A DNA stretch of 30,436 nt from a virus: positions 1-30,436 of IMG/VR virus record IMGVR_UViG_3300010160_000162, one strand, 5' to 3'. The translations under genes were made by a program, and so were the position numbers. Positions 1 to 23,929 of this stretch are shown in pieces (within the stretch, counting starts at the first letter, position 1; the number at the start of each line of letters is the position of its first letter). The notes beneath the pieces were generated by a model, which saw nothing but the letters and a program-made list of their open reading frames with translations, ran no database searches and was not told the origin of the DNA.

Positions 1-360
1 GGTGCACAAGGTATTCAAGGTATTCAAGGTCCTACAGGGGATCAAGGTATACAAGGTATTCAAGGTCTTACAGGTATTCAAGGTATACAAGGCGTAACAG
101 GACCAACAGGACCCACAGGTGCTCAAGGTATTCAGGGTGTTACAGGACCTACAGGTGCTCAGGGTATACAAGGTATTCAAGGTGATATTGGACCAACAGG
201 TTCTCAAGGTATTCAAGGTATTCAAGGTATTCAAGGTATACAGGGTGTTACTGGACTTACAGGACCTACAGGTACTCAAGGTACTCAAGGTGTAACAGGA
301 CCTACAGGACCTACAGGTACTCAAGGTACTCAAGGTGTGACAGGACCTACAGGTGCTACA
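1..360 (+). repeat. Collagen-coding DNA repeats (GIQ/GPT/GAQ triplets)
   Basis: This is a run of 9-base units of the form ggt-att-caa (Gly-Ile-Gln) mixed with gga-cct-aca (Gly-Pro-Thr). Up to four GIQ units stand in a row near 208-243. The same units recur at about 544-1280, 1501-1878, 2059-2895 and in shorter tracts up to 3830. All copies keep the reading frame. Confidence 0.9.
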
Positions 361-3300: not shown

Positions 3301-4107
3301 ATTCCAGCTGATTATACTACTGCAAGTTTGTTAATTATTGCCAACGGCTCAGTATTAACTCCCTCAGAAGATTATTCAGTAAGCGGAACTACACTAACAT
3401 TTACTACTGCTCCAGATGCTGGACAAGAAGTAATTATCAGAATGATGCGTGGTGACGGACCCACAGGACCTACTGGAGCATTTGGTGGACCCACAGGCCC
3501 ACAAGGTGTTACAGGACCCTCAGGCCCTTCAGGTGCAATTGGTTACCCTTTTGTTATAAACACATTAAACTTTACGGGTAATGGTACTACAACTAACTTT
3601 ACAATAGACAGTGGTTATACTACTGACAGTGTATTAGTTATTGCTAACGGTATTGTATTAAAACCAGTAGCAGATTATTCTGTTACTGGAACAACCTTAG
3701 CTTTTGCTATTGCTCCAGGCTCTGGACAAGAAATTGTTGTCAGAGAAATGAAAGGTGACGGACCCACAGGACCAACAGGTGCTAGTGGATCAAATGGAAG
3801 TACTGGACCAACTGGACCTACAGGGCCAATGTCGGCAGTACAAGAATATATAGCAACCCAGGGTCAAACTGCTTTCGGCGTATCTAATGGATACGTTCCA
3901 GGATCGGTCTTGGTATATCTTAATGGTAGTTTACTACGTACTAGTGCTTACACTGCTACGGACGGTTACATTGTTACATTAACTAATGCTTGTATAGTAA
4001 GTGACGTTGTTAGAATAGTATCTAGTGTTGGCTCAACTGCGCTAACAAATATAACTAACTATTCTAAATCAATAAGTATTGCAATGAGCGTAGCATTGAG
4101 CACATAA
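1..4107 (+). CDS. Collagen-like phage tail fibre/adhesin (5' partial)
   Basis: The frame is open from base 1, so the true start lies left of the window and at least 1368 residues are present. An internal ATG at 337 sits in the middle of the G-X-Y repeats and is not the start. Long collagen-like tracts ([30 protein letters not shown]) alternate with globular modules. One module of about 60 residues (LYLWNGT motif) occurs at 364-543 and 1879-2058. A second of about 72 residues (FTGNGTTT...LVI.NG...DYTV motif) occurs near 1285, 2896, 3241 and 3544, with a diverged fifth copy at the C-terminus (about 3838-4035). Collagen-like triplets are common in phage fibres, where they form trimeric stalks, so this is probably a trimeric virion fibre. 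It has Gln/Thr-rich Y positions rather than hydroxyproline sites. The role as an adhesin is inferred; the collagen-like composition is seen directly. Confidence 0.9.
364..543 (+). repeat. LYLWNGT module, copy 1, inside the collagen-like fibre
   Basis: This 60-residue non-collagen insert contains [18 protein letters not shown] and [11 protein letters not shown]. It aligns without gaps to the copy at 1879-2058. The W-N-G motif near its end resembles short tryptophan motifs repeated in the fibre at 19660 (IETWNGTTW, LYVYNTSSW). Confidence 0.85.
1285..4035 (+). repeat. Dispersed FTGNGTTT modules (five copies) in the collagen-like fibre
   Basis: Copies begin near 1285, 2896, 3241, 3544 and (diverged) 3838. 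Each is about 72 residues long with a core of FTGNGTTT, then a D/YxxxSVLVI.NG strand pair, then DYTVxGTxLTF, and ends in VRE(M/L)(K/M)GDGPTG. In the first two copies the distance from FTGNG to GDG is 183 bases in both. Short collagen linkers separate copies 2 to 5, so the C-terminal part of the fibre is an alternation of beta-rich knobs and collagen stalk. No function is known to me for the module. Confidence 0.8.
1879..2058 (+). repeat. LYLWNGT module, copy 2, inside the collagen-like fibre
   Basis: This is the second copy of the 60-residue insert, identical in length (180 bases) to that at 364-543 and very similar in protein sequence ([29 protein letters not shown]). Many differences are at third codon positions, so the duplication is not recent. 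Confidence 0.85.
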
Positions 4108-7046: not shown

Positions 7047-10000
7047 ATGAGTATAGCAGCTTATTTAGCAAAATTATCTGAGGGCGTTAACAGCTCAGGT
7101 ATATTAACAACTTCTAAAGGTGGTACTGGTACTACCTCTGGAGGTGCTTTTCCCACAATTACTAGTATTAGTTATGGCGGGGATGAAAATGATACTGCTA
7201 CAGATACTGCAGGCGGCAAAACCGTCACCATTACTGGTGCAAACTTTGCCGCAAACGCTAAAATACTCATCAATGGTGTTGCTGCACCAGTTGTATCAGT
7301 TGTTAGCGCAAGTACAATTACATTTACTACCCCCGCTATGGCGGCGGGTACGTATGTGTTGTATATGGTTAATGCTGATGGAAGCACTGCAATTGCGGTG
7401 CCCGGTATTTCATATAGCGGAGTACCTGCTTGGTCAACGGCCGCAGGTACTGTTGCTACTGTTACAGAAACAACAGCAATTAGCGCATCATTAGGTGTTA
7501 CAAGTAATAGTGCAACTACAGTTAGTGTACTAAGTGGAGCACTACCCCCTGGAGCTGTTTTAAACTCCAACGGCACAATTTCGGGCACTAGCCAAATTAC
7601 AGCTAGTCCCACAACTTATACATTTACAGTACGCGCAACCGACCTAGAACTACAAGACACAGATCGTCAGTTTAGTATTGTAATTAATCCTGAAATAGTA
7701 ACTTTTTCAAATCCCACAAACGGTGGTACTGTACTTGCTTACTCAAATCTTTATAATACAATTAATTTAAGCGCTATAGGTAACGCAGGCAATGCTATAT
7801 CAAGCTATAGCGCAAACACTTTACCCGCAGGACTTACACTAAGCGGTAGTACAATTACAGGAACTGCTGCCAGTGTAGGCACAAGTTCAACTACATTAAC
7901 AGCAACTACTGCTAACACTAATAGAAGTACTCAAATTACTTTTAACTGGAGTGTTACTGTTAGTGGAGATTTATACTGGAGAAATACTCCGCTATTGTTA
8001 AGCGGAACTTCCACTGCAAATAGTTCTCTTAGTGATTATTTAATATTAAATAATCAGCTTATACCTATTGGAGATACGCGTACTAGCAATTTTAATCCTT
8101 ATCAAGCAGGGTATTATTCAAATCAATTTGCAGTTAGTGCAGACTATATTACTACTCCAGTAACCACATTGAATAGTGGTTTTGGCACAGCAGATTTTAC
8201 AGTTGAAGCATGGATATATCCAACTGTAGCACAATCAACAACTATTGTATCTTCAAACTATAGTTATGGTACAGCAGCAGGTAACTGGGCATTTTATACT
8301 ACGGTTGGGTCTGCTAATACCATATATTTTAACGGCGGTAGCGCTAGTACAGCTGGAGCAAATCATGCTTCAAGTGCAACTACTACAATACCAATTAATC
8401 AATGGACACACATAGCATATTCTAAAATATCCAATGTTGGGTACTTTTTTATAAATGGAGTCCAACTTGGAACAGGCGTTGCTGATACTACAAATTATGC
8501 AGGTGCTACAGGAACATTATATGTAGGACGACAAGCTGATGGAACTGGGTTTTTAACTGGATACATAAGCAATTTACGTATTGTAAAAGGCACAGCTGTA
8601 TACACCACTAACTTTACGCCTGCCACAGCGCCACTAACTGCAGTCACAAACACAACCCTATTAACATGCCGATCAAATCAGTTTACGGATGCTGGCCCAA
8701 ATAATTTTACAATTACAACTGCTGGTACACCAAGTGTTCAACAATTTAACCCATTTGGAATTCCTGCATCCGCTACTACAAATAATTTGTATAGTGCTTA
8801 TCTTACTAGTGCAACTGATTCAAGATTAACAGTTCCCGCAGGTACTGCTTTTGCGTACGGTACAGGAGATTTTACTGTAGAAGGTTGGTTTTTTGTACCT
8901 ACAATGACGGCAACAAATTCACCGATTATATTTTCGCAAACAGTAAGCGGAACAAATTATTTTTGGAATGGTCTTCAATCAATTTCTTCAGTGCTTACTG
9001 GAAAAGTATCGTTTATTGGCACCGGTAGCGGTGGCGGTACTGAGATACTAAGTGGCTCAAATTTATTTACGGCTGGTACTTGGAATCATTTTGCAGTTTG
9101 CCGTGTAAGCGGTATGATAACTGTGTACTTAAACGGTCAGGGTGGCACACCTACAGCAAATGCAACTGATTTTTCAAACACAAGTTATGTGCCTACAATT
9201 GGCGGATACACTCATGCCGCAGCAAATCTTTTTAATGGGTATATATCAAACTTACGTGTTGTTAAAGGCACGGCTGTTTACACCACCAATTTTACGCCTG
9301 CAACCACCAACTTAACAGCTATTAGTGGTACAAGTTTATTAACTTTTCAAGATGCAACGATTCGCGACAACTCAGCTAGCGCACTTACTATTACTAATGT
9401 TGGTACTGCCCGTTTAGTTGCACAATCACCGTTTACCCAAACAACTAGCACAATTGCATTAGCTAATGTTGGTAGCACTTATTTTGACGGTACTGGAGAC
9501 GCAGCATATATTGCTGGAGACGGTAATGTTGTAAATTTTGGTAATGGTGATTACACTATTGAGTGTTGGATTTATCATATTGGTGGAATAGGTTGGATGG
9601 ACACATGTCCTGGTGGAACTGTAACTCCTACAAATAGAATACAGTTATATATGAATAATGATGGTTCGTGTACTTATATAACATATCAAGGTAATCAAAC
9701 TCTTATTGCTACTGCAACAGGACTTGGTCCCCCTCGACAGTGGAATCATATGGCTTTAGTTAAGTACAATAACCAAACCAGAATATACGTAAACGGTGTT
9801 CAAGGTGGTAGTACTTACGCAGATACTTTAACTATGCCTTCACAATCAAATCGACCCTTTATAATGGGTAATGGTTATGACGGTAGTCAAGGCGGCACAG
9901 CTTACCTTAGTAATTATCGTATTACCAAAGGTGTAGCGGTTTATACTACACCATTTGCATTACCTACTGCACCTTTTACTGTAGGTAAAGGTACTCAAGC

Positions 10001-13000
10001 ATTATTTTACCAGACTTCACAAGCACCAAACAATTCACAATTTGTTGATAATTCACCAGCAAGCAACCCAATTACGCGTTTTGGTAATACCTCACAAGGT
10101 ACGTTTGCGCCGTATGGAGCTAATTGGTCTAACTACTTTGATGGTACTGGTGATTGGATAACTACAACTGCTAGTACAAAATATCAATTTACTGGTGATT
10201 ACACTCTTGAAGCTTGGATTTATGTTACTGTGTTAACAGATGGATTAATATTTGGCACTGCCACTGCTGGTGGCGCTACTGACCAGTTTGGTTATTCATC
10301 TACTGGTCAATTATATTTTGCTAATGTACTAACTGCAGCTGGTCTTATTACAACAAATAATTGGATTCATGTCGCGGCTTCAAGAAGCGGTACAACGCAA
10401 AAACTATTTATAAATGGCGTAGTTCAATCAACAGCAACTGTCTCAGGCACAATTGGTCAAAATTTAGCTGGGTATATTGGTAGAAGGGCCGACACTTTTA
10501 GTCCAGTTAACGGTTATATTTCAAATCTACACCTTGTAAACGGCACTGCTCTTTACACAGCTAACTTTACTCCACAAATCACTCCACTAACACCTGTTAC
10601 AAATACAGTACTATTAACTTGTCAATCACCTGGATTTGTTGACAATAGTGCCAATAATTTTGTTGTGTCAAACGTTGGCGATACAAAAACACAACGCTTT
10701 TCACCATATGGTGCAACAATTCAAACTCCTACATCATACAGCGTACAGTTTAACGGTAATACCAACGCTTTTACTACACCATATAACGTGGCTTTAAATC
10801 TTTATCAATCTGTTTGTACAGTTGAATGTTGGGTTTACCTTACTAGTTTTCCTATTACTAATAGTGCTGTTATTTATGGACATACTGCATGGGATGGTAC
10901 TAATACATATACAGGATTAAATATAACTACTGCTGGCAATCTTCAGTATATGACTAGAAATATGTCAGCGGGTAACTATGTTACTTCTACTAGTACCGTA
11001 CCATTAAATCAATGGGCTCACATAGCTTGGGTTAGAAGCGGTACACTAGGCGATACTTGGACATATTACATAAATGGAGTTGCAGCAGGCACTGGTTCTT
11101 GGACTGGAAGAGGCGAAGAGGCGTGGAATACTTCTATGGCTGTTGGAACAGGTAATTTTAATAATGATAGAACTTTTCCTGGATCAATTTCAAATCTACG
11201 AGTAGTTAAAGGTGTGGCAGTTTATAGTGGTGCATTTACACCACCCACAGCACCATTAACTGCAGTTCAAAGTTCAGGAACTAACATTGCTGCTATTACT
11301 GGTACCGCAACAAGTTTATTAACTTGTCAAGATTCTACAGCTAAAGATAGTTCCACAAACGCATTTTCAATCACAGCAACTGGTAGTTTAGCCCTTAGAA
11401 AATTCAACCCATTTGGTTACACAAACACACAAGGTTCAGCATATACTCCTGCGCTATATGGTAGTTCAGCATACTTTGATGGTACTGGGGATTATTTAAG
11501 CGCTCCAAGTATGCCAACATTAGGCACTATTTTTACAGTTGAATTTTGGATGTACGGTACAACTACTGCTAGTCCACAAACACCTGTATATTTAAACGGT
11601 AATACTAGTGGTTTTGCCGCAGTTAATTTTAATTATAATGGTAGTACTGGTGCTATCACTTTATTTGCCAGTACAAGTGGAGCAGCATGGCAAGTAAGTG
11701 GTTCAGCAGCTGGAACAATGGTAATTAATGCGTGGAATCATTATGCAATTACTTATGATGGAACTAACTTTAGACCTTATGTTAACGGAGTTGCAACAAC
11801 TGCAATTGCATTAACGGGTCCGTTAATGGCAGGAACAGTTAATTATATTGGGCAGTATTACACTGCACAAAATTTTACAGGTTATATTTCAGATGTTAAA
11901 ATTACAAAAGGTCAAGTACTTTATAGCTCAAACTTTGTACCACCACAAACACCATTAACAGCAACAAAAAATACTACGCTCCTACTCAACATGGACAAAG
12001 GTGCTCTTGTAGACTATACCAAGTCAGTTAATCTAGAAACAGTTGCTGATACTAAGATTAATAACGAAAGTGCACTAAACGGTGGTTACTATTCAAATTA
12101 CTTTGATGGTAGTGGTGATACGTTTTCTACTCCTGCAGGTTTAAGTACCGCAATGGGCACAGGATTTGCAGGTAATATTCTTTCTTTTGAGTGCTGGGTA
12201 TTTCCACAAAACCATAACTTTGGTGCATATGCACAGATGATTGCAGGAGCATATGCAGCAGTTGCAGCAAATGGACGTTGGTATATTGGTTTTGATAAAA
12301 CAGCTAATGCAACTACTCAATTAGTATTTGGATGGACTACAAGTAGCGGTTCGCAAACAGGTGTAACAACTACCGTATTTCCTATTACTCACGGTCAGTG
12401 GAACCATATTGCTGTTACCGTTGATGCTACCACAGCAGCTAGCAGTACTATTAAATTGTTTGCAAATGGACTACTATTAAATACATTTACAGCACAAGAT
12501 ATGTCTTCACAAACAGCGTACTATCAACCTACGCAAATAGGCGGTTGCGGTTCTACTACTTATACTTCTGAATTTCACGGATATATTTCAAACTTCCGTA
12601 TATTAAAAGGCTCACTGGCATATACTACAAACTACACTGTACCAACTGCTCCATTAACAGCAATTACAAACACAGTGTTATTAACTTGCCAAGGAAATAC
12701 TTTTAAAGATAATTCAATTGGTAATTTTGCATTAACACGTAATGGTGATGTAGCAGTCCGTTCATTTAACCCATTTAGACGTAATACCTCCACAAGTATG
12801 TATTTTGACGGAACTGGTGATTATTTATCAATACCCGTAAATCCAGCATATGGTTTTGGTACTGGCGATTTTACTGTTGAATACTGGATGAATCAAACTG
12901 CAACAATGACAGGTGAGTATGCAATTATTGAAACTCAAACCACTAATGCTTTTGTAATATATAAAATAAGCGCTAGTGGGGCATTGAGCTGGAGAGGTTA

Positions 13001-13298
13001 TGCTTCTGCGAATGATCAAACTCTTTTAACTCATGCTAATATTGTTATAAATACTTGGTATCATATTGCTGTTAGCAGAGCATCTGGTGTTACTAAAGGA
13101 TTTGTTAATGGTGTTCAAGTGTTTAGTGTTGCTGATACACTTAATTACGCAATACCAACTGTTGTAACTACAGTTGGTGGAAGAAATGGTGGAACAAATG
13201 GTTTCCCAGGTTACATAGAAGACTTACGCGTAACAAAAGGTTATGCCAGATACACGGCTAATTTTACACCAACAACAACAAAGTGGCCATCTAATTAA
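7047..13298 (+). CDS. Giant LamG-repeat adhesin A (TIG, Ig-like x2, LamG x8)
   Basis: This protein has 2083 residues; the start at 7047 follows AAGGA at 7037-7041. Residues 1-24 form a segment shared with three other fibre genes, followed by the fibre motif SKGGTGTTS. An IPT/TIG domain follows at about 36-123 (VTITGANF, ILINGV, ITFTTPA). Two putative-Ig (He_PIG-like) domains cover about 126-306 with LPPG...GTISGT signatures. From residue 355 there are eight LamG/concanavalin-like repeats of 204-242 residues. Each starts YFDGTGDY-like, continues F(T/S)(V/I)E.W, W.H.A and INGV, and closes with GYISN(L/F)R.(V/T)KG.A.YT. Between repeats lies a linker of the form LLTCQ...DNS...IT..G...NPF. LamG-like domains in phage virions are thought to bind surface glycans, so this is probably a receptor-binding or capsid/tail decoration fibre. 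It is a paralogue of the next gene. The exact ligand is unknown. Confidence 0.88.
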   Translation: MSIAAYLAKLSEGVNSSGILTTSKGGTGTTSGGAFPTITSISYGGDENDTATDTAGGKTVTITGANFAANAKILINGVAAPVVSVVSASTITFTTPAMAAGTYVLYMVNADGSTAIAVPGISYSGVPAWSTAAGTVATVTETTAISASLGVTSNSATTVSVLSGALPPGAVLNSNGTISGTSQITASPTTYTFTVRATDLELQDTDRQFSIVINPEIVTFSNPTNGGTVLAYSNLYNTINLSAIGNAGNAISSYSANTLPAGLTLSGSTITGTAASVGTSSTTLTATTANTNRSTQITFNWSVTVSGDLYWRNTPLLLSGTSTANSSLSDYLILNNQLIPIGDTRTSNFNPYQAGYYSNQFAVSADYITTPVTTLNSGFGTADFTVEAWIYPTVAQSTTIVSSNYSYGTAAGNWAFYTTVGSANTIYFNGGSASTAGANHASSATTTIPINQWTHIAYSKISNVGYFFINGVQLGTGVADTTNYAGATGTLYVGRQADGTGFLTGYISNLRIVKGTAVYTTNFTPATAPLTAVTNTTLLTCRSNQFTDAGPNNFTITTAGTPSVQQFNPFGIPASATTNNLYSAYLTSATDSRLTVPAGTAFAYGTGDFTVEGWFFVPTMTATNSPIIFSQTVSGTNYFWNGLQSISSVLTGKVSFIGTGSGGGTEILSGSNLFTAGTWNHFAVCRVSGMITVYLNGQGGTPTANATDFSNTSYVPTIGGYTHAAANLFNGYISNLRVVKGTAVYTTNFTPATTNLTAISGTSLLTFQDATIRDNSASALTITNVGTARLVAQSPFTQTTSTIALANVGSTYFDGTGDAAYIAGDGNVVNFGNGDYTIECWIYHIGGIGWMDTCPGGTVTPTNRIQLYMNNDGSCTYITYQGNQTLIATATGLGPPRQWNHMALVKYNNQTRIYVNGVQGGSTYADTLTMPSQSNRPFIMGNGYDGSQGGTAYLSNYRITKGVAVYTTPFALPTAPFTVGKGTQALFYQTSQAPNNSQFVDNSPASNPITRFGNTSQGTFAPYGANWSNYFDGTGDWITTTASTKYQFTGDYTLEAWIYVTVLTDGLIFGTATAGGATDQFGYSSTGQLYFANVLTAAGLITTNNWIHVAASRSGTTQKLFINGVVQSTATVSGTIGQNLAGYIGRRADTFSPVNGYISNLHLVNGTALYTANFTPQITPLTPVTNTVLLTCQSPGFVDNSANNFVVSNVGDTKTQRFSPYGATIQTPTSYSVQFNGNTNAFTTPYNVALNLYQSVCTVECWVYLTSFPITNSAVIYGHTAWDGTNTYTGLNITTAGNLQYMTRNMSAGNYVTSTSTVPLNQWAHIAWVRSGTLGDTWTYYINGVAAGTGSWTGRGEEAWNTSMAVGTGNFNNDRTFPGSISNLRVVKGVAVYSGAFTPPTAPLTAVQSSGTNIAAITGTATSLLTCQDSTAKDSSTNAFSITATGSLALRKFNPFGYTNTQGSAYTPALYGSSAYFDGTGDYLSAPSMPTLGTIFTVEFWMYGTTTASPQTPVYLNGNTSGFAAVNFNYNGSTGAITLFASTSGAAWQVSGSAAGTMVINAWNHYAITYDGTNFRPYVNGVATTAIALTGPLMAGTVNYIGQYYTAQNFTGYISDVKITKGQVLYSSNFVPPQTPLTATKNTTLLLNMDKGALVDYTKSVNLETVADTKINNESALNGGYYSNYFDGSGDTFSTPAGLSTAMGTGFAGNILSFECWVFPQNHNFGAYAQMIAGAYAAVAANGRWYIGFDKTANATTQLVFGWTTSSGSQTGVTTTVFPITHGQWNHIAVTVDATTAASSTIKLFANGLLLNTFTAQDMSSQTAYYQPTQIGGCGSTTYTSEFHGYISNFRILKGSLAYTTNYTVPTAPLTAITNTVLLTCQGNTFKDNSIGNFALTRNGDVAVRSFNPFRRNTSTSMYFDGTGDYLSIPVNPAYGFGTGDFTVEYWMNQTATMTGEYAIIETQTTNAFVIYKISASGALSWRGYASANDQTLLTHANIVINTWYHIAVSRASGVTKGFVNGVQVFSVADTLNYAIPTVVTTVGGRNGGTNGFPGYIEDLRVTKGYARYTANFTPTTTKWPSN
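8111..13298 (+). repeat. Array of eight LamG-like repeats in adhesin A
   Basis: Repeat starts, judged from the YFDGTGD-like strand, are near 8111, 8787, 9469, 10123, 10734, 11459, 12081 and 12792. Each repeat ends in a GYISNLRIVKG-like strand and an inter-domain linker. The last repeat lacks the linker and ends the protein (KWPSN). Confidence 0.85.
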
Positions 13299-13301
13299 GG
13301 A
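13297..13301 (+). promoter_or_regulatory. Shine-Dalgarno site of adhesin B
   Basis: AAGGA lies 6 bases before ATG 13308 and overlaps the last bases of the preceding stop region. The same leader form (AAGGAATA followed by the start) occurs before 7047 and before 23950, suggesting copied leader sequences within the fibre cluster. Confidence 0.7.
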
Positions 13302-13307
13302 ATATCA

Positions 13308-16300
13308 ATGAGTATCGCAAAATATTTAGCTAAATTAGCACAAGGCGTTGATTCTCAAGGACAATTAAGTAATACTAAAATATCGGGGGGTTATGATACA
13401 ACTCCTACTATTACTGGTATTGCTTATCCAGGAGACGATACAGCTGCTGATACAGCTGGCGGGCAAACTATTACCTTAACAGGTAATAACTTTGCCAATG
13501 GCGCACAGGTTATTATTAACGGAATAACTGCAAGTGTTGTAACAGTTGTGTCAACAACTCAGCTTACATTCACAGCACCAGCTGTTGCAGCTGGTAGCTA
13601 TATATTGTATGTAGTAAACACTAATGGTGGTACTGCTATTGCGGCTCCTGGTATTCAGTATTCTGCATTACCTGTATTTACAACCGCAGCTGGTACTTTA
13701 GGTACTTTGTATGAAACACAAGCAGTTAGTGCTATTACTTCATCTACTAGTGATTCTACAATTACTTACTACTTACAAAGTGGAACTTTGCCTCCTGGCG
13801 TTACCCTAAACAGTGCATCAGGAGTTATTAGCGGTACGTCGTCTGCTACTGCAGCTTCGACTACTTATACATTTACTGTTCGCGCAACTGACGGCCAACA
13901 ACAAGACGGAATCCGTCAATTTTCATTAACTATTAATCCTGACATTATTACATGGACTAATCCAACAAGTGGTGGTACATTAAGTGCTTATCAAGGCGTT
14001 GCAACAGTTATTCCAATTACCTCTGCCACAGGCACAGGCACTAACGTAGTTTACTCAGCTACTAATACTCCTCCTGGCATGGTACTTGCTGGTGATATAT
14101 TTACAGGCACACCAACTACCATAGGTAATACCAGTGCTACACTAACTGGTACAACAGTTGCTACTGCACGTACTGCACAAATTAATTTTACTTGGTCTAT
14201 TAGCGTACAAGGCGACACATACTGGCCGCAAACCACAGTGTTATTTCAAGGCACTGCTACAAGTGGTGTAGATCATTTTGCTACCGATACGAGCCCAAAC
14301 AATAACTTTGTTACCATTGTAGGCGATACTCGCCCCAGCAAACAAAATCCTTATCAAGCTGGGTATTACTCCAATCAATTTGATGGAACAGCTACTAGTC
14401 CTATAGGTACTTTTACTGGTCCTACTATCGGCACAGGTGATTATACTATTGAGTTTTGGGTAAATCAAGTTACTTTAACAGGTGATCAAGATTATTATCA
14501 AACATATTCTGGATCACTTACTCAAATAATGCTAGAATGGGATGGTACTGCTCAAAGAATTCGTCATAGATTAGGTAATGATGCGGGCACAAGTAACTTT
14601 GATTATAATAGTACAGTTGCACTTGTTGCTGGTCAGTGGAATCATTTAGCATTTGTTGTAAATGGTGCAACAGCATATACATTTATTAATGGTGTACAAA
14701 GCGGAACAGCCGCAGTTACAGGTTCTAGAACATCAACTTTTACTAATACTTTATTTGGTTGTTTATATAGTAGTAGTAGATTTTTTAATGGAAATATATC
14801 AAATTTTCGTTTTGTAAAAGGTACTGCGCTCTACACTACTGGATTTACGCCATCTACTGCTCCGTTAACTGCTATTACTAATACAGCAATGTTAACATTT
14901 CAGTCCGCTAGACTTGTTGATAATTCAATAAATAAATATAATATTAGTGGTGGTGGAACTACCAATCGTATAGTACCATTCAACCCATTTGGCGTACCTG
15001 CTACTACAACTGTAAACACTCGTTATAGTACCTACTTTGACGGTACTGGCGATTATATTACGGCAACACCAGCCGCCATTGGCACATCACAGTTTGGCAT
15101 AGAAGGTTGGTTTTATACATCCGACGTAACCACACTAAGATTTATTACTTCGCTTGGTTACAACAATAACAACAGTTTGTTTTTAGCAGTTAATAATAAT
15201 CAAGTTCAATTAAGTGTACAAGACAACGCAGGAGCATTTCCGCTTAATAATGTCAACATAGGCACACCAGTTGCTAATAGCTGGAACTACTTTTACGTTG
15301 GTCGCGGTGCGACTACGTCGGGAAGTGCAACTTGGTACTATGGTTTAAATGGTACTGTTAGCAGCCAAGCTGCAGCTAGCCCAACATTTCCTAGCAGAAA
15401 CTTTGAATTGGGTTATGCTGCCACACGTGCACTAGCAGGTTCTTACTTTCTGGGTTATATTTCAAATGTTCGTTTAATAGTTGGCAGTACGCCTTATACT
15501 ACCAGTTTTACCCCCGCTACAACACCATTAACAGCAGTTACAAATACTCAATTACTGGTTTGTCAAGACGCTACACTACGCGATAATTCCACAAACGCAT
15601 CCGTAGTAACAAGTTTTGGTGATGCACGTCCAGTTGCTGTTAGTCCGTTTACTTTGGCAACTAGCTCAGTTGCACTAGCTAACATAGGTAGTACATATTT
15701 TGATGGTACTGGGGATTATTTACAGCTTGCAAATAATTCTGCAATTTGTAATTTAAATGGATCTAATTTTACAGTCGAGTGCTGGGCATATGCTACAAGT
15801 ACAGCATCTAATTCATGTTTGATGGCTTGTTCAGCAAATCCAAGTCTTGTAGGTTTTGCAATTTTTATCCTAACCGGAAACTTAACTGTTTACGTAAATA
15901 ATGGTAATACAGTAATTGGATCCGTTACGTTTCCTATAAATACATGGAATCATGTAGCGTTTGTTCGTAATAATACTGTTTGTACATTATATTTAAATGG
16001 TGTTACTGTTGCTTCTGCTACAGTTGACATTACAAATCCTGCCGCAACTCAACCTTTTGTTATTGGCGGTATTACTAGTACAAGTGGTTGGAATAGTAAT
16101 TTATTTTTTACTGGATACATACAAGATGCACGTGTTGTCAAAGGTACAGCACTTTACACAGCAAACTTTGAAGTACCAACTCAACCATTAACAGCAGTTA
16201 CAAACACTCAGTTATTGACGTGCCAAACTTGGCAACCCACAAACAACAGCATGGCTGTTGACAACGGCCCGGCCGCTAATTTAGCTACTCGTTCAGGAAA

Positions 16301-19300
16301 TGTTTCACAAAGCTCATTTAGCCCGTATGGTAGTGGGCATAGCATGTATTTTAATGGCGGTGGCAGTAGTGGTTATTTATTACCTAATGGCTTATATTCA
16401 AAAACTGGTAATGTTAACAGCGGAAGCATAAATCTTCCGGGCGCGTTTACTTTTGAGTGCTGGGTTTATTTAACTGCTGGTGGCAGACATTGTATGATGG
16501 GTAGTCCAAATGGTTGGGCTTATTCAACCGACTGGGGTATTGCCATTTTGGACACTACAAATGGAGCTAGTACTAGTTATAATCCTGGTTTTTGTTTTAT
16601 ACGAACAGGTACTAGTGGATATGGTAGTAATTTTCTATATGCCACAAATTTTGGTTACCCAACACTAAATACTTGGCATCATCTTGCTATGTGTCGCGAT
16701 TCAAGCAATGGTTGGCATATGTATATGGATGGTGTAAAAGGCATAAATGCTAATCTTAATTCTATTGTCCATGCTTATGTACAATATGACGCTAACAGTG
16801 GTCCAAGCGGAACACTTGCTTTCTATCCTGCTGTAGCTAATTTAAATGGTATAATTGGTGGAGGTAACGGTACTGCAGCTCCTTCTGGTTTTAATGGTTA
16901 TATCAGTGATATGCGTTTAATTAATGGTACTGCACTTTATACAGGTGCTTCATTAACAATGCCAACTCAGCCACTATCACCAGTTGCAGGTACAGTTATA
17001 TTAGTAGGTCAAGACGACAAGTTTACAAACTTTGCTGATGACAAAGGAGTTAGGTATACCCATGAATACGCTAGTGCCAATAATTTTCGTGCAGAAAAGT
17101 TTAGTAAATTTAATACTGCAGACTCTCCAAAATTACCCATTAGTTATTCAAACTACTTTGACGGTACTGGTGACTATTTAAGTACCGCAGTATCAACAAG
17201 TACTCCAGGCTGGAACCTTATGGCTCCAAGTGGTAGTGGAGGTGGTACTGTAGAAGCTTGGATTTATGTAAACAGTGCTACTAGACGTATTATATGTGGT
17301 TGTTTAAATATTGGAGCATCTTATACTGGATGGTATCTTAGCATAAGTGCTACAGGACAACTAGCCGTAGAAGGTTATACTAGTGGTAATGCTGCAGGTC
17401 CGGCAATTAATTCTGGACTTGGATTAGTTGCACTTAATACATGGACACATATTGCTGTTAGTTGTGTAAGTGGAGTAGTTACTTTTTATATTAATGGCGT
17501 TGGTTACACTAGCGCAACATCAATACCGGCTACTTGGCAAATTAATAACACAGCTACTGCTACCATGGTTGGTGAAGCTTATACACCTTGGAACATACCT
17601 TTCTTAGGCTATATTAGTAATTTGCGAATGATTAATAATGCGGCATTTTATACGGCTGCAAGTTTAACAGTTCCAACTGTACCGCTAACAACTACAGTAA
17701 ACACTACACTATTAACTTGTCAAAATGCGACTCTTAAAGACAATTCCCAAAATGCTTATGCCATAACAGCTTTTGGTAATGCAATGCCTGCACTAGCAAA
17801 TCCATTTGGATTTACTGTAACAACAGGTACTCAATTTACTCCTCAAATTAAAGTTGGTTCAGCATTTTTTGACGGAACTGGTGATTATATAACTGTTCCG
17901 CATAGTCCTGCACTTGATCTTAACTGTGATAACTGGACCGTTGAAGCTTGGGTTAATCCTACTGGCACTGCGGAAATGGGAGTTATAGGTAAACGAGGTA
18001 ATGCTAATTATACTAGTTGGCTTATTAATATTAGAAATCAACGATTATATATTCTTGGATCTAGTAATGGTACTAGTTGGACTTTAAATAGTGGAGCAGC
18101 TGATGGTGTAACACCCGTAACACCAGGTTGGTGGACACATATTGCTGTGGTTAAAAGCGGAACCACAGTGTATTGTTTTGTAAACGGTAAACTTGATCAA
18201 ACTTATACCGGTATTGCTAATATAGCCGCTAATACCAATGCTTTAACAATTGGTGCAAGTTCAGTGGGTCCAGAAAATCTTTATACCGGGTATATTTCAA
18301 ACCTTCGTGTTATAAAAGGCCAAGCATTATATACTCAAGCATTTTCACCTCCAACTGAACCACCTGCTGCAAACAAAAACACAGTACTACAAATGGATAT
18401 GGACAAAGCACCAATTGTTGATGCTACATCAAGTCGTCCAGCGGAAACCGTTGGTGATGCTAGATTAGTTACTGAAAGTGCTTATAATACCACTTACTAT
18501 TCAAATTATTTTGATGGTACTGGTGATTATCTAAATGCGCCTTCTAGTACTAATTTAAATCTAACAGCTGACTTTACAGTTGAAACGTGGGTAAATGCTA
18601 CTGCAACAACAAATGCAGCCGACCAAGTTTTTAACTATGGTAATTATATTTTTATGTTGTATCACGTTGGTACGACATGGACTGTTGAAGTTGGTAATGG
18701 TACTAGTAATTTCTTTACATTAAGTGGTACTGCAAGTTTAAATGCTTGGCATCATTTTGCAATTACAAGAAGTGGTAATACATATACATTTTGGATAGAC
18801 GGAGTATCAGCAGCAACTACTACTAATACTAATGCACCTTCTACATCTGCGGCAACATTATATATTGGCAGACGTTCAAGTGTTAATGATCAATATTTTA
18901 CTGGATTTATATCTAATTTCCGTATAGTTAAAGGCACTGCGCTTTATACAACAGCGTTTACGCCTTCAACAACTCCATTAACAGCTGTAACAAACACTCA
19001 ATTATTAACTTGTCAGTCAAACAAGTTTGTTGATAATTCAGTTAATAACCTCGCAATTACTCGTACTGGTGACGTAGTAGTTCGTTCTGTAAACCCATTC
19101 AAACGCAATACTCAAACAAGTATGTATTTTGATGGTACTGGTGATTACATTTATACTCCAACAAATGCTTCGTATGGTATTGGTAGTGCTAATAACTTTA
19201 CTATAGAAGCATGGGCATATCCTATTATAACTACAGCAGGTAAGGGGATATTCCAAATATCTGCAACTGCTGGTGGATTACAAGCCTCAGTATCAACTAC

Positions 19301-19649
19301 TCTTGCTATTGCAATAACGGCAACTAACGCAGTAGAAATGTACGCAAATGGAACAACTTATACTACAGCTGCTGCTAAAGTACCTCTTGGTGTTTGGACA
19401 CACCTTGCAATTGTTAGGTTAAGCGGAGTAACTAAACTGTATATTAACGGTGTATTAGAAACAAGTATAGGTACAGCAGGTTCTATTACAGATACAACCG
19501 CTTATCCTAATACAAGTTTAGTAGTTGGTGGGTATTATAGTACAAGTTATTTGTGGAATGGTTACATAGAAGACTTCCGTATAACCAAAGATGCTGCTCG
19601 TTATACAGGTACGTTTACACCTCCAGCATTTAAACTTGCTAACAGATAA
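13308..19649 (+). CDS. Giant LamG-repeat adhesin B (paralogue of adhesin A)
   Basis: This protein has 2113 residues and begins 9 bases after the previous stop, behind AAGGA at 13297-13301. Its layout matches the preceding gene. It has a shared N-terminal segment (MSIAKYLAKL...G), a TIG domain at about 32-123 (ITLTGNNF, VIINGI, LTFTAPA), two Ig-like domains to about residue 303 (LPPGVTLNSASGVISGTS; TPPGMVLAGDIFTGTP), and eight LamG-like repeats from about residue 352. Repeat-specific oddities occur at the same ordinal position in both paralogues: the insert before SPYG after repeat 3, the MDK linker after repeat 6, and the linker-less repeat 8. The whole gene was therefore duplicated after the array had formed. 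Probable role: virion adhesin or decoration fibre binding surface carbohydrates, inferred from the LamG and TIG families. A shift in host specificity between A and B is plausible but untested. Confidence 0.88.
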   Translation: MSIAKYLAKLAQGVDSQGQLSNTKISGGYDTTPTITGIAYPGDDTAADTAGGQTITLTGNNFANGAQVIINGITASVVTVVSTTQLTFTAPAVAAGSYILYVVNTNGGTAIAAPGIQYSALPVFTTAAGTLGTLYETQAVSAITSSTSDSTITYYLQSGTLPPGVTLNSASGVISGTSSATAASTTYTFTVRATDGQQQDGIRQFSLTINPDIITWTNPTSGGTLSAYQGVATVIPITSATGTGTNVVYSATNTPPGMVLAGDIFTGTPTTIGNTSATLTGTTVATARTAQINFTWSISVQGDTYWPQTTVLFQGTATSGVDHFATDTSPNNNFVTIVGDTRPSKQNPYQAGYYSNQFDGTATSPIGTFTGPTIGTGDYTIEFWVNQVTLTGDQDYYQTYSGSLTQIMLEWDGTAQRIRHRLGNDAGTSNFDYNSTVALVAGQWNHLAFVVNGATAYTFINGVQSGTAAVTGSRTSTFTNTLFGCLYSSSRFFNGNISNFRFVKGTALYTTGFTPSTAPLTAITNTAMLTFQSARLVDNSINKYNISGGGTTNRIVPFNPFGVPATTTVNTRYSTYFDGTGDYITATPAAIGTSQFGIEGWFYTSDVTTLRFITSLGYNNNNSLFLAVNNNQVQLSVQDNAGAFPLNNVNIGTPVANSWNYFYVGRGATTSGSATWYYGLNGTVSSQAAASPTFPSRNFELGYAATRALAGSYFLGYISNVRLIVGSTPYTTSFTPATTPLTAVTNTQLLVCQDATLRDNSTNASVVTSFGDARPVAVSPFTLATSSVALANIGSTYFDGTGDYLQLANNSAICNLNGSNFTVECWAYATSTASNSCLMACSANPSLVGFAIFILTGNLTVYVNNGNTVIGSVTFPINTWNHVAFVRNNTVCTLYLNGVTVASATVDITNPAATQPFVIGGITSTSGWNSNLFFTGYIQDARVVKGTALYTANFEVPTQPLTAVTNTQLLTCQTWQPTNNSMAVDNGPAANLATRSGNVSQSSFSPYGSGHSMYFNGGGSSGYLLPNGLYSKTGNVNSGSINLPGAFTFECWVYLTAGGRHCMMGSPNGWAYSTDWGIAILDTTNGASTSYNPGFCFIRTGTSGYGSNFLYATNFGYPTLNTWHHLAMCRDSSNGWHMYMDGVKGINANLNSIVHAYVQYDANSGPSGTLAFYPAVANLNGIIGGGNGTAAPSGFNGYISDMRLINGTALYTGASLTMPTQPLSPVAGTVILVGQDDKFTNFADDKGVRYTHEYASANNFRAEKFSKFNTADSPKLPISYSNYFDGTGDYLSTAVSTSTPGWNLMAPSGSGGGTVEAWIYVNSATRRIICGCLNIGASYTGWYLSISATGQLAVEGYTSGNAAGPAINSGLGLVALNTWTHIAVSCVSGVVTFYINGVGYTSATSIPATWQINNTATATMVGEAYTPWNIPFLGYISNLRMINNAAFYTAASLTVPTVPLTTTVNTTLLTCQNATLKDNSQNAYAITAFGNAMPALANPFGFTVTTGTQFTPQIKVGSAFFDGTGDYITVPHSPALDLNCDNWTVEAWVNPTGTAEMGVIGKRGNANYTSWLINIRNQRLYILGSSNGTSWTLNSGAADGVTPVTPGWWTHIAVVKSGTTVYCFVNGKLDQTYTGIANIAANTNALTIGASSVGPENLYTGYISNLRVIKGQALYTQAFSPPTEPPAANKNTVLQMDMDKAPIVDATSSRPAETVGDARLVTESAYNTTYYSNYFDGTGDYLNAPSSTNLNLTADFTVETWVNATATTNAADQVFNYGNYIFMLYHVGTTWTVEVGNGTSNFFTLSGTASLNAWHHFAITRSGNTYTFWIDGVSAATTTNTNAPSTSAATLYIGRRSSVNDQYFTGFISNFRIVKGTALYTTAFTPSTTPLTAVTNTQLLTCQSNKFVDNSVNNLAITRTGDVVVRSVNPFKRNTQTSMYFDGTGDYIYTPTNASYGIGSANNFTIEAWAYPIITTAGKGIFQISATAGGLQASVSTTLAIAITATNAVEMYANGTTYTTAAAKVPLGVWTHLAIVRLSGVTKLYINGVLETSIGTAGSITDTTAYPNTSLVVGGYYSTSYLWNGYIEDFRITKDAARYTGTFTPPAFKLANR
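14361..19649 (+). repeat. Array of eight LamG-like repeats in adhesin B
   Basis: Repeat starts are near 14361, 15016, 15685, 16332, 17141, 17853, 18494 and 19113. Repeat 4 is the longest (about 809 bases) because of an insertion in the middle of the domain and an unusual linker (ILVGQDDKFTNFADDKG). The remaining repeats are 619-712 bases. Confidence 0.85.
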
Positions 19650-19659
19650 AGGGGAAATT

Positions 19660-21075
19660 ATGACTTTAGCAGTAAACTTAGCAAACTTAGTTGACGGATT
19701 AAGTGCAGACGGAACTATTGCTGACCCTAAATCGGTAAGTGATAAAGCCAATACCAGTACGGGGTATTTTGATTTGCCTTCGGGGACTACGGCACAACGC
19801 CCAGCATCTCCTAACACAGGTATGGTTCGTTATAATTCTAGCCTAGGACTTATTGAAACTTGGAACGGCACTACATGGACAGGACTAGGAGGCAGTGCTA
19901 CAATTAGTGGCACTGCTCCTGCAAGTCCCACAGATGGTGCATTATGGTTTAATAGTACAACAGGGTATTTATACGTCTATAACACAAGTAGTTGGGTATT
20001 ATCAGGTTTTAGTGGAAGTTACACTGACCTTACTAACAAGCCATCACTTTCAGCAGTAGCTACTAGTGGTAGTTATGCTGATTTATTTAATAAACCAGCA
20101 ATTACACCTACAGCAGTTAGTGATCAAGCAAATACAAGCACAGGATATTTTGGTGTACCTACTGGTACAACAGCACAACGTCCAGCATCTCCAACCACTG
20201 GTGCAACTAGAATAAATACTACTACAAATTATATTGAAATGTACTATGGAGGTTCCTGGGTTAATGTAATATACATAGGTTTAGTAACTTTAAGCTATAC
20301 TGGAACACCAACAGTTACATCTGTGGGTAACTATAATACATTAACATTTACTGGAACAACTGGATCTATTACAGCTACTAATGTACCAAGTGGCGCGCTT
20401 ATAGAGTATTTACTTGTAGCTGGTGGTGGCGGTGGTGGTAATACAATGGGCGGTGGTGGCGGTGGTGGCGGTGTACTATATGGTACTATTAACCCCACAG
20501 TAAACACTCAATACTCATTTACTATTGGTCCTGGCGGAGCTGGTGCAACAAGCCGAGCTGCTAATGGTCTTAACGGCACTGCTACTACTGCATTTGGCTT
20601 AACTGCTGTTGGTGGTGGAGGTGGAGCCAGTTGGACACCTGTTACTGGAAGTGCAGGTGGTTCAGGCGGTGGAGGTTCAAGCGGTAGTGGTGCAGGCGGT
20701 GCAGGCACCAGTGGACAAGGATTTGCAGGAGCTACCGCAACTGGATCAGGTGGAGGTGGTGGTGGAGCTGGAGGCATTGCACCTGCAGGTACTGCAGGCG
20801 TTGCTGGTTCAGGTGGGCCAGGATTTAATTGGCAAAGTTTTGGTACATTTTACGGCGGCGGTGGCGGAGCGGGTAGCGGTAGTGGCTATAGCAGTAACAT
20901 TAATGCTCCAGGCGGTACAGGCGGAGGTGGTTCAGGCGGCACACATTCCACAGCGGGTAATCCAGGAACTCCAAATACTGGTGGCGGTGGTGGCGGTGGT
21001 GGTTACGGAGCAGCAGACTATAACGGTGGCCTAGGTGGTAGTGGTGTAATATTAATTAGATATAGGTTTCAATAA
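19660..21075 (+). CDS. Tail fibre protein with C-terminal polyglycine domain
   Basis: This protein has 471 residues. ATG 19660 is chosen because it follows AAAGGGG at 19648-19654 with a 5-base gap and aligns to the N-termini of the other fibres; the frame stays open upstream inside the previous gene. Residues 1-24 (MTLAVNLANLVDGLSADGTI...K) match the shared fibre N-terminus. Two modules with TAQRPASP (about residues 44 and 170) and tryptophan motifs (ETWNGTTW, YGGSWVNV) follow, with a middle copy (PTDGALWFNSTTGYLYVYN) and Y.DL.NKP linkers typical of phage fibres. From about residue 246 to the end is a glycine-rich domain. It opens YLLVAGGGGGG, has several runs of five to eight glycines, and closes GGSGVILIRYRF. 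This matches the glycine-rich domain family and recalls the polyglycine-helix receptor-binding tips of T-even-like adhesins. Receptor binding is inferred. Confidence 0.87.
   Translation: MTLAVNLANLVDGLSADGTIADPKSVSDKANTSTGYFDLPSGTTAQRPASPNTGMVRYNSSLGLIETWNGTTWTGLGGSATISGTAPASPTDGALWFNSTTGYLYVYNTSSWVLSGFSGSYTDLTNKPSLSAVATSGSYADLFNKPAITPTAVSDQANTSTGYFGVPTGTTAQRPASPTTGATRINTTTNYIEMYYGGSWVNVIYIGLVTLSYTGTPTVTSVGNYNTLTFTGTTGSITATNVPSGALIEYLLVAGGGGGGNTMGGGGGGGGVLYGTINPTVNTQYSFTIGPGGAGATSRAANGLNGTATTAFGLTAVGGGGGASWTPVTGSAGGSGGGGSSGSGAGGAGTSGQGFAGATATGSGGGGGGAGGIAPAGTAGVAGSGGPGFNWQSFGTFYGGGGGAGSGSGYSSNINAPGGTGGGGSGGTHSTAGNPGTPNTGGGGGGGGYGAADYNGGLGGSGVILIRYRFQ
20395..21072 (+). repeat. Polyglycine-coding tract
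   Basis: GGT/GGC/GGA-rich DNA encodes repeated glycine runs that are regularly spaced by short non-glycine turns. It is distinctly richer in G than the rest of the window. The frame is maintained throughout. Confidence 0.8.
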
Positions 21076-21077
21076 TT

Positions 21078-21731
21078 ATGGGTATAGCACGATATTTATC
21101 AAAACTAGGTTCTGTGTTAAGCGCAGAAGGTGTAGTACCCGTTTCCAAAGGTGGAACAGGCTCTTCAACAACTAGTGGTGCAAAAACTGCACTTGGGTTA
21201 GTAATTGGAACAGATGTTTTATCACCAACTGGATCAGCAGCTAGTCTTACAAGTTTTCCAACTTTTAATCAAAACACAACTGGAACTGCTGCAGGTTTAT
21301 CAACCACTTTAGTTGCAGCTTCAGGTGGAACAGGTATTACTAGCCCAGGAGCTTCCGGAAACATATTAGTTTCTAATGGTACAGCTTGGTTAAGTGCTGC
21401 TAGTGCTACTAGAGTAGTGGCTTTAGCTGATGCAACAACAGCTACTATTAACGCTGATACTACGGATATAGCTACGCAAGCTAATACTCAAGCAACAGGA
21501 ACATTAACCATAGCAGCACCAACTGGAACGCCCACAAACGGACAAAAAATAATTTTTAGATTACAATCAACTAATGTGCAAACTTTTAGCTGGAATGCAA
21601 TATTTACAGGTTCAACTGATTTAGCTCTTCCAACTACTTCAACTGGTACAAGCAAGTACGATTATGTGGGTTTTATGTATAATTCAACAGCTGCAAAATG
21701 GCAGTTGTTGGCTAAAAACTTTGGGCATTAA
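21078..21731 (+). CDS. Short tail fibre protein with shared N-terminus
   Basis: This protein has 217 residues. ATG 21078 lies 2 bases after the previous stop, with no good Shine-Dalgarno site (only AGG further upstream), so translation is probably coupled. Residues 1-24 (MGIARYLSKL...G.....K) match the N-termini at 7047, 13308 and 19660. Then comes the classic phage fibre motif VSKGGTGSSTTSGAKTALGL and a related SGGTGITSPGASGNILVSNG near residue 95. The C-terminal half (residues about 115-217) has ADATTATINADTTDIATQ and ends F.GSTDL.LP...KYDYVGF.YN...KWQLLA, which looks like a small beta-sandwich head domain. Probable minor fibre or head-decoration protein; its ligand is unknown. Confidence 0.8.
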   Translation: MGIARYLSKLGSVLSAEGVVPVSKGGTGSSTTSGAKTALGLVIGTDVLSPTGSAASLTSFPTFNQNTTGTAAGLSTTLVAASGGTGITSPGASGNILVSNGTAWLSAASATRVVALADATTATINADTTDIATQANTQATGTLTIAAPTGTPTNGQKIIFRLQSTNVQTFSWNAIFTGSTDLALPTTSTGTSKYDYVGFMYNSTAAKWQLLAKNFGH

Positions 21732-21733
21732 AT

Positions 21734-23929
21734 ATGGCAAACCGATATTGGAGAGGCGGTAGCGGTACTTGGGGCAGTACTACTACTAACTGGTCTGCCA
21801 CAGCTGGTGGGGCTGGAGGTGCATCAGTTCCTGTAGCTGGAGACTCAGTATTTTTTACCTTAGGAACTACATATACAGTAACCTTTGCCGCCGGAACAAA
21901 TTTTAGTGTTACTGATTTTACAGTATCTGGAGGAACTGTTACATTTGTACAAGCTGCTAGTATGGTTTTAAATGTAAGTGGTAATTTTTCAATACTTTCA
22001 AATACTGTGTTCAGCGCAGCAGGTGGAACTGGTACTCTTAACTTTTTTAATACTGGCGGCAAAACTGCAGGTACAAATGGCGCCGCAGTTGGTCTTAATG
22101 TTATTTTTGGTAATTCAAGTAGTAGTAGTATTACATTAAGTAGTGCATTTAATGTAAAATCTCCAGGAACTACTACATTAACCTCTGGTACTTTAAACTT
22201 AAATGGATTTAATCTTACTACATCCTATTTTGATTCAAGCAATACAAATACCAGAACTTTAGCTTTTGGAAGCGGAAATATTACAACTCCATACCTTTAC
22301 TGTGCTAATGTTAGCAATATGACTTTAACTAAAACTACTGGTGCTGTTATATGTGATACGCCAGGTAGTTATTATAATTTTGGTAATAGTAGTACCGGCG
22401 GTTATACTGCAGGCACTAGTGGAGCTCCTAATCTTACTTTTACAGGAGCAGGTAGTACTACAATTAGTACAACTATCTCCAGTAATACAACTGCATATTA
22501 TTATGCTTATTGGGATACTATTGATTTTGGAAGTACTGCTGCAAAAATTACTACAGGATTAGATAATCAGAGTATGCAGATCTACCCTGGTTGGCCCATA
22601 CTTTGTAAAAGTTTAATTTTAAATTCAAGTGTTGATACTACTACTAATAATATAGGATTTACTCAATATAATACTGGTACTATTACTAGCAATGGCGGTA
22701 CACTTTACACCTTGTCCATGAGTTCAAACTCTAATTTAACATTATTAGACTCTTTAACTTGTGGTTGGTATGGCTATTTTAATCATGCAGGTACGTTAAA
22801 TTTAAATGACTTTAATATAATTACGCCAAAATTTTATAGTAATGGTACTAGTACTCGTACTATAAATTTTGGTACAGGTAATATTGAACTTACAAACGGT
22901 ACTGGAACAGGTACTGTAGTAGCACTTGATTGTACAACTGCTACTGGATTTACTTGGACAGGTACTGGTGGTTTTACAGTTGGGGCATTAACTAGTGGTA
23001 TTACAAGAACGTTTACATTTGGCACAACCGGTGGTTCAACTAGTAACGCTCCTAACTTATCTGTCACATCTGGATCAATAGGCCCTACACTAACTTCCGG
23101 CAGTTGGTTTAATGTATTAAATTTTACAGGTAGTACTGCTGGCGGTTATACAACATCTTTAAATCTTAATGGTTTAGTGTTGGGTAGCGGAACGTACACT
23201 AGTTTAACACCAACTATGAGAGGTACTGGTACTATTACAAGTAATGGTAAAACGCTTCCTAGTCTCACAATTAATAGTTCCGGAACTACTACTTTAGGCG
23301 ATGCATTAACCACAACAGGTGCTACAACAATAACTGCTGGGACGTTGGATTTAGCAGGATTTACAATGACTACACCTAGTGTTACTTCTGCGTCTACTTC
23401 TGCCAGATCAATTACTGGAGCAGGCACTATTAACGTAAGTGGAGCTTGGACAATTAGTAATGGAACTAATTTTACAGGTTCTAACTATACTATAAATATG
23501 ACTAGTGCTTCTGCTAAAACATTTGCGGGCGGTAGTGGTTCATATGGAAGTTTAGTTCAAGCAGGAGCTGGTATTTTAACAATATCTGGTTCTAATGCAT
23601 TAGCAAATATTAGTGCAACCACTCGCCCTTCTACTATAACTTGTACGGCTGGAACAACTCAAACATTAGCAAATTTTACACTGTCTGGAACGTTAGGTAA
23701 TTTAGTAACAATTAATAGTTCTACTGTGGGTACACAATTTACCCTAACAAAACCCACAGGTACTGTAGCACCCAATTATTTAAGTATAAAAGATAGTAAT
23801 GCTATTGGTGGTGCAACATGGAATGCATATAATATTGCTGGTACTAATACAGATGCTGGTAATAACACTGGTTGGATATTTATTTCAACAACAGCTCCAA
23901 TTACTGGTCAATTCATGGCTTTCTTTTAA
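21734..23929 (+). CDS. Beta-solenoid-like fibre/adhesin protein
   Basis: This protein has 731 residues; ATG 21734 lies 2 bases after the previous stop with a weak ribosome site, so coupling is likely. The N-terminus (NRYWRGGSGTWGSTTTNWS) is a motif seen in phage and surface proteins with repetitive beta-structure. The body is built of short beta strands rich in T, G, N and S. A unit resembling GTLNLNGF..TT...S..T.TRT..FG.GNI recurs near residues 150, 352 and 534, and an ITSNG.TL strand unit precedes the second and third copies, giving a period of about 180-200 residues. No signal peptide, autotransporter barrel or catalytic motif is visible. It fits a virion fibre or decoration protein with a beta-solenoid or stacked beta fold; this is inferred from repeat pattern and neighbours. 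Confidence 0.72.
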   Translation: MANRYWRGGSGTWGSTTTNWSATAGGAGGASVPVAGDSVFFTLGTTYTVTFAAGTNFSVTDFTVSGGTVTFVQAASMVLNVSGNFSILSNTVFSAAGGTGTLNFFNTGGKTAGTNGAAVGLNVIFGNSSSSSITLSSAFNVKSPGTTTLTSGTLNLNGFNLTTSYFDSSNTNTRTLAFGSGNITTPYLYCANVSNMTLTKTTGAVICDTPGSYYNFGNSSTGGYTAGTSGAPNLTFTGAGSTTISTTISSNTTAYYYAYWDTIDFGSTAAKITTGLDNQSMQIYPGWPILCKSLILNSSVDTTTNNIGFTQYNTGTITSNGGTLYTLSMSSNSNLTLLDSLTCGWYGYFNHAGTLNLNDFNIITPKFYSNGTSTRTINFGTGNIELTNGTGTGTVVALDCTTATGFTWTGTGGFTVGALTSGITRTFTFGTTGGSTSNAPNLSVTSGSIGPTLTSGSWFNVLNFTGSTAGGYTTSLNLNGLVLGSGTYTSLTPTMRGTGTITSNGKTLPSLTINSSGTTTLGDALTTTGATTITAGTLDLAGFTMTTPSVTSASTSARSITGAGTINVSGAWTISNGTNFTGSNYTINMTSASAKTFAGGSGSYGSLVQAGAGILTISGSNALANISATTRPSTITCTAGTTQTLANFTLSGTLGNLVTINSSTVGTQFTLTKPTGTVAPNYLSIKDSNAIGGATWNAYNIAGTNTDAGNNTGWIFISTTAPITGQFMAFF

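Follow-up and report, generated by a model that had tools for sequence, protein, structure and literature searches.

A short N-terminal segment on the fibre proteins of an uncultured phage is probably a virion-attachment module

A 30,436-base window, which is the whole of an IMG/VR record, carries the tail-fibre end of the genome of an uncultured phage. Four consecutive genes in it encode fibre proteins whose first 24 residues are related segments, set on bodies of differing kinds. We assign a probability of about 0.68 to the reading that this segment is an N-terminal virion-attachment module, and comparison of the sequences indicates that it is likely a subfamily of a wider fibre-start module of the MTQAFNLSQLANNLNTSGQL and MTQAFNLSQLANN type.

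The genes concerned are all transcribed in the forward direction. A gene for a collagen-like protein (coordinates 1 to 4107), which is truncated by the contig end and contains five small 'DYT' domains, is followed by that for a phrog_5838 virion structural protein (4125 to 7025), lying directly 5' of the first fibre gene. Fibre 1 (7047 to 13298; 2083 residues) carries the segment MSIAAYLAKLSEGVNSSGILTTSK at 7047 to 7118, after which come a GGTG motif (7119 to 7130), an IPT/TIG-like stretch and eight Laminin_G_3 domains; fibre 2 (13308 to 19649; 2113 residues) carries MSIAKYLAKLAQGVDSQGQLSNTK at 13308 to 13379 and also has eight Laminin_G_3 domains. The segment of fibre 3 (19660 to 21075; 471 residues), MTLAVNLANLVDGLSADGTIADPK at 19660 to 19731, is the weakest of the four, and it is followed by two TGYFDLPxGTTAQRP stretches and then a Gly_rich_2 domain. 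The start of this gene is an internal ATG within a longer open reading frame that opens at 19591, and purine-rich, ribosome-site-like sequence lies 5' of the ATGs at 7047, 13308 and 19660. Fibre 4 (21078 to 21731; 217 residues) begins with MGIARYLSKLGSVLSAEGVVPVSK at 21078 to 21149 and ends in a 107-residue domain (21408 to 21728) that is a widespread fibre-end module. We note also that coordinates 26140 to 27186 encode a predicted protein, MKIAVYAISKNEEQFV, which by eye is glycosyltransferase-like and which is located between the tail genes and the endolysin in most of the segment-bearing contigs.

The sequence-only reading had proposed that the four N-termini form one gap-free alignment of 24 residues in which L7, L10, G18 and K24 are shared; the alignment holds for the genes starting at 7047, 13308, 19660 and 21078, and M1 and A4 are likewise identical in all four. 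Over residues 2 to 24, three strong segment pairs have BLOSUM62 scores of 67, 46 and 39, compared with a shuffled all-pairs maximum averaging 10.9 (95th percentile 21, highest 32), this comparison having used a gene list without the 19660 start. Leave-one-out HMM searches over the 163 open reading frames of the window recover the starts at 7047 (E 1.8e-6), 13308 (E 9.5e-6) and 21078 (E 0.0068), and the 19660 segment falls short of significance when only the window is used (E 0.77). It does score at E 2.7e-4, in the correct register, against a family HMM from whose training set both 19660-type sequences were left out, and its counterpart in contig G001, MTLAVNLANLVDALGTDGTITDAK, occupies the identical position in the gene order. 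PHROG tail-fibre profiles match the lysine at position 24 together with the GGTG after it, a motif that is generic to fibres, and K24 is therefore weak as evidence for docking. The specific signal sits in residues 1 to 20, and the KGGTG part is best seen as a linker. A search of the PDB with the segment profile gave no match.

A search among relatives, using the four segments and then an HMM, yields a family of 35 matches in 14 contigs, all at the starts of fibre open reading frames, with five copies in contig G001 and four each in G002, G003, G008 and G014; at E 0.017, one of the G002 matches is weak. When 2.9 million viral contigs are scanned with a strict degenerate DNA pattern, about 14 match, again those of this small group, and the pattern is absent from 85,000 prokaryote genomes; the confinement of the pattern to so small a group indicates that the exact form of the segment is clade-specific. 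The sequence-only reading had asked whether the segment recurs in related phages on different adhesins, and it is present in close relatives, in up to four or five copies per contig, on bodies that are unrelated to one another.

Within the window, the bodies of fibres 1 and 2 from residue 25 onward are homologous (37% identity, E 0), and the claim that the 19660 and 21078 bodies are unrelated is upheld, such that no pair beyond 7047 and 13308 reaches E 0.01 over this part. In the relatives the segment is found on laminin-G, glycine-rich and collagen-like bodies and on small beta domains; near-identical segments occur on unrelated bodies and, conversely, homologous bodies occur under differing segments. 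Segments of the MGIARYLSKL type, for instance, head fibre 4, collagen-like proteins and a short fusion in G001. A clean natural swap of recent date is seen between the genes at 8884 in L008 and 536 in L015, whose bodies are about 98% identical but whose N-termini differ, with DNA identity rising from about 50% to 96-100% at K24-GGTG (codon 24); the GGTG of fibre 1 corresponds to this breakpoint between N-terminus and body in the relatives. The proposal of a modular segment carried on differing bodies is thus well founded, since the segment is kept in relatives while bodies are swapped at its C-terminal edge, and this retention suggests that the segment is under selection. At L010 11041-11229 (contig G001), a segment MGIARYLSKLGSVLSAEGIVPVSK is joined at K24 to the 39 final residues of a protein resembling that encoded at 21734-23929, next after fibre 4 in the window, and this join is either a natural fusion or deletion, or an assembly error.

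Exchange is also apparent at the other end of fibre 4, whose C-terminal 107 residues recur at about 70-87% identity behind a wide variety of N-termini, in at least 80 other contigs. A distant relative of this domain is present under another start, MSVASQLSFGNAA, in L020 and L054, where the gene concerned is a small open reading frame immediately 3' of the phrog_5838 gene. No Pfam, NCBIfam or PHROG model covers the domain as searched in fibre 4, and Foldseek matches it in many predicted phage fibres.

It might be supposed that the segment is a relic of recombination or of translation starts, in which 5' ends have spread by helping expression or by homologous exchange and have no structural role. 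Ala4 is encoded by GCA (at 7056-7058 in fibre 1, for example) in all but one of the 35 members and the third positions of codons 7 to 9 are nearly fixed, and A-ending codons are generally enriched at gene starts (0.61 versus 0.39), all of which would suit such an origin. We regard it as highly improbable, as L7, L10 and G18 are kept in the protein while the third positions of the G18 and GGTG codons vary freely, and as the tags inside one genome are strongly different. The same freedom at third codon positions led us to reject KGGTG as a DNA-level recombination signal and indicates that its conservation is at the level of the protein. At codons 4 and 7 to 9 of the segment genes the bias is stronger than the preference for A-ending codons that gene starts of these phages show in general.

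Within any one genome the segments have a mean identity of only 0.41, and the best match of a tag has a mean identity of 0.48 in its own genome and of 0.84 in another. This bears on the proposal that one docking peptide serves several fibres: attachment remains the best explanation of the segment, but a single peptide does not fit, and similarity that is lower within genomes than across them is better described by a set of related tags. One such class, 'AR-L', is found in 10 of 15 contigs, never more than once in each, and is always last or next to last. On the nearest relatives of the tags the claim is limited to the difference in identity, because a shuffled-label test of whether nearest tags avoid their own genome is at chance (1/39, not below chance, P 0.38). 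A more elaborate system, in which four to five co-assembled fibres bear slot-specific helix tags that each dock on their own copy of a small repeated domain of a collagen-like mast, we consider unlikely; its address tags would be conserved by slot across genomes regardless of the adhesin body and, if it were true, adhesins could be swapped while keeping their place on the tail.

The tags also bear on whether the four starts simply arose by duplication of one fibre gene followed by replacement of the bodies, in which case their similarity would reflect descent and be uninformative as to joint assembly. Fibres 1 and 2 are clear paralogues (37%), and the nearest relatives of the tags are in other genomes, both in favour of this view. 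Docking and descent are compatible, however, and the segment has stayed in place through exchange of the bodies, which suggests selection, so we take descent alone to be an improbable account.

A relaxed pattern extends the putative attachment module well beyond the window clade, to at least 108 members at start codons (for example MTQAFNLSQLANNLNTSGQLDATDGLTGAVPVANGGTG) with 15 body clusters in more than 100 further contigs. Matches to a 'MSVAMNLDKFAEFF' pattern, which fall on methionines inside another protein, were excluded from this set. The wide module is not covered by any Pfam model and PHROGs match only the linker, and tblastn of N-terminal peptides of 33-52 residues against phage records returned nothing or P19250A alone, queries this short being weak. 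Among the matches listed, the wide module is single-copy in 104 of 106 loci, whereas the window clade often has four to five copies, and in 84 of 104 wide loci with a readable neighbour the gene directly upstream, of the tail-tip J type, encodes a long protein ending in LxQQTFARxGA[A/V]. A scan of newly fetched loci with the tail motif only, and hence independent of the fibre sequence, shows that 54 of 55 readable next genes start with the wide module (L334 is the exception); a strict regular expression called 47 of these 54, and the rest, differing at about one position, were read by eye. Starts selected in this way by the tail align with the window-clade profile in hhalign over 22 ungapped columns (probability 92%, E 7e-7), and 19 of 65 tail-selected next genes match that profile at E<0.01, the best background value being 1.3. 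Homology between the window clade and the wide family is therefore likely, although over a helix of 20 residues the similarity may instead represent convergence.

Among phage records matched by the short-query searches, the wide module is known in one isolate record only, that of the Methylophilaceae phage P19250A. Its fibre APC43905.1 begins MSNAFNLSQLANNVDTSGILNTSGGGTG, which the segment HMM matches at residue 1 (E 0.0021), and follows a J gene (annotated as host specificity protein J) whose product has the tail QQTFARYGAA. Like fibre 4 of the window, the P19250A fibre has a C-terminal domain related to that of fibre 4; it differs from the window clade in having a single copy of the module in the region read and in its J protein with the QQTFARYGAA tail. 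The J-type protein of the window clade is without a QQTFAR tail, and the segment genes there do not lie directly 3' of a J gene ending in QQTFARxGA[A/V]. In L221 and L259, the fibres upstream of the fibre gene start MALRKNRAIAKLVANVNNQGQV and MAFERKNRRIAKLVASITVEGQV, respectively, and look like the segment lengthened at its N-terminus; these loci may be another multi-tag array.

The type of tail distinguishes contigs with the segment from those that share only the upstream gene. All six long contigs that carry the segment encode a J-type tail protein, and none of the six has a T4-type sheath. Of 29 contigs that have phrog_5838 but not the segment, none encodes the J-type protein and 17 clearly have the sheath. 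This split fits an N-terminal part that is matched to the tail and a remainder that is exchangeable, although the co-occurrence with J-type tails may reflect common ancestry alone. The phrog_5838 protein itself is common to T4-like cyanophages (48% to S-CAM1), yet the related contigs indicate a J-tailed, non-sheathed phage; its presence there is a case of tail-gene mosaicism.

The collagen-like protein has DYT domains at residues 431-497, 968-1034, 1083-1149, 1184-1250 and 1281-1338, that is five copies, and its counterparts in four relatives have five to eight. The domain occurs in 59 of 59 J-type proteins tested, and in the wide family it lies near the C-terminus of these proteins. A one-to-one correspondence between DYT domains and fibres was rejected, as the ratios are 5/4, 6/5, 5/4 and 5/4 but also 8/4, 5/1 and 5/2. 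That the collagen-like protein acts as a docking mast is speculative, and it remains so because DYT copy number does not track the number of fibres.

In the structure that AlphaFold2 predicts for fibre 4, residues 3-13 form a helix (pLDDT 81-86), residues 30 to 109 are disordered and residues 112-217 make up a beta domain (about 90); for fibre 2 it predicts a low-confidence helix at residues 3-11 (pLDDT about 50). The helical hydrophobic moment of the segment is 0.52 compared with 0.27 for shuffles, and residues 3-14 would form an amphipathic helix with A4, L7, L10/A11 and L14 on one face, presumably ended by G18. Such a helix followed by a linker, and the heptad-like spacing of A4, L7, A11 and L14, are what would be seen if the segment were only a trimerisation coiled coil, the folding nucleus of each fibre, with attachment made elsewhere. 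A generic coiled coil, though, would not require the strict G18, A4 and (in the wide family) N12/N15; the neighbouring tail is conserved in 54 of 55 loci, and the tag classes are kept across genomes regardless of the body, which together make this alternative doubtful. On the preferred reading of an attachment module, the helix probably packs within the trimeric fibre and plugs it into a socket at the tail tip, with a flexible KGGTG-type linker that would bear the exchangeable body. In the wide family the module would most likely partner the QQTFARxGA C-terminal tail of the J-type protein encoded just upstream; in the window clade this one-to-one pairing with J would have been lost and the module multiplied into an array of up to four or five fibres with distinct tags, which may be assembled together on one virion.

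Among known systems, the segment comes closest to a short conserved peptide on the secondary receptor-binding proteins of Klebsiella phages. Short conserved N-terminal docking peptides are described for these proteins in the KP32 and KP34 phages and in K1-5 and G7C (Latka et al. 2019, PMC6872550); they are 7-29 residues long, conserved by group, placed on unrelated bodies and proposed to link additional fibres to an anchor, and the KP34 consensus MALxxLV is, like the segment, a short hydrophobic start (PMC6872550). The segment is likewise a short N-terminal peptide that is conserved within a phage group and followed by divergent bodies. In those systems, however, it is the added protein or proteins that bear the peptide and the anchor has a T4gp10-like domain, whereas here distinct but related tags are on four to five fibres of a J-tailed phage. 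A search of eight contigs with PF07880, which covers the gp9/gp10 N-terminal domain only, found no gp10-like anchor over the cut-off, with two weak sub-threshold matches in G009 and G010.

Two other systems invite comparison. The Ackermannviridae have a branched complex of four tailspikes, TSP1-4, with XD/TD domains (PMC11414711), in which, as in the window, several adhesins combine a conserved N-terminal part used for assembly with a C-terminal part that can be exchanged, there on one virion. They use large folded XD/TD domains, in contrast to the 20-residue helix here, and the window tags do not appear to be gp10 homologues; fibres 1-4 have no Pfam match to a gp10-like XD domain, and between the fibre 4 C-terminal domain and the N-terminal part of TSP4 (residues 1-335) the folds match only weakly (E about 2e-3, TM about 0.3). 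The LtfA and LtfB proteins of the siphovirus DT57C form branched lateral fibres, and the N-terminal 45 residues of LtfB are conserved with phiEco32 gp15 and are thought to dock on another fibre (PMC4728585); DT57C differs from the window in having two fibres only, and its conserved start is longer and different.

Short fibre-tail tags determine which adhesins a phage can swap, and they are known from few cultured groups. The wide module described here is widespread in uncultured phages and lacks a model in Pfam or PHROGs, and its main form comes with a candidate partner, the conserved C-terminal tail of the neighbouring J-type protein, in an isolate whose host is in culture, such that docking is directly testable. 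The multi-fibre clade to which the window belongs would show one type of socket turning into a multi-adhesin tail.
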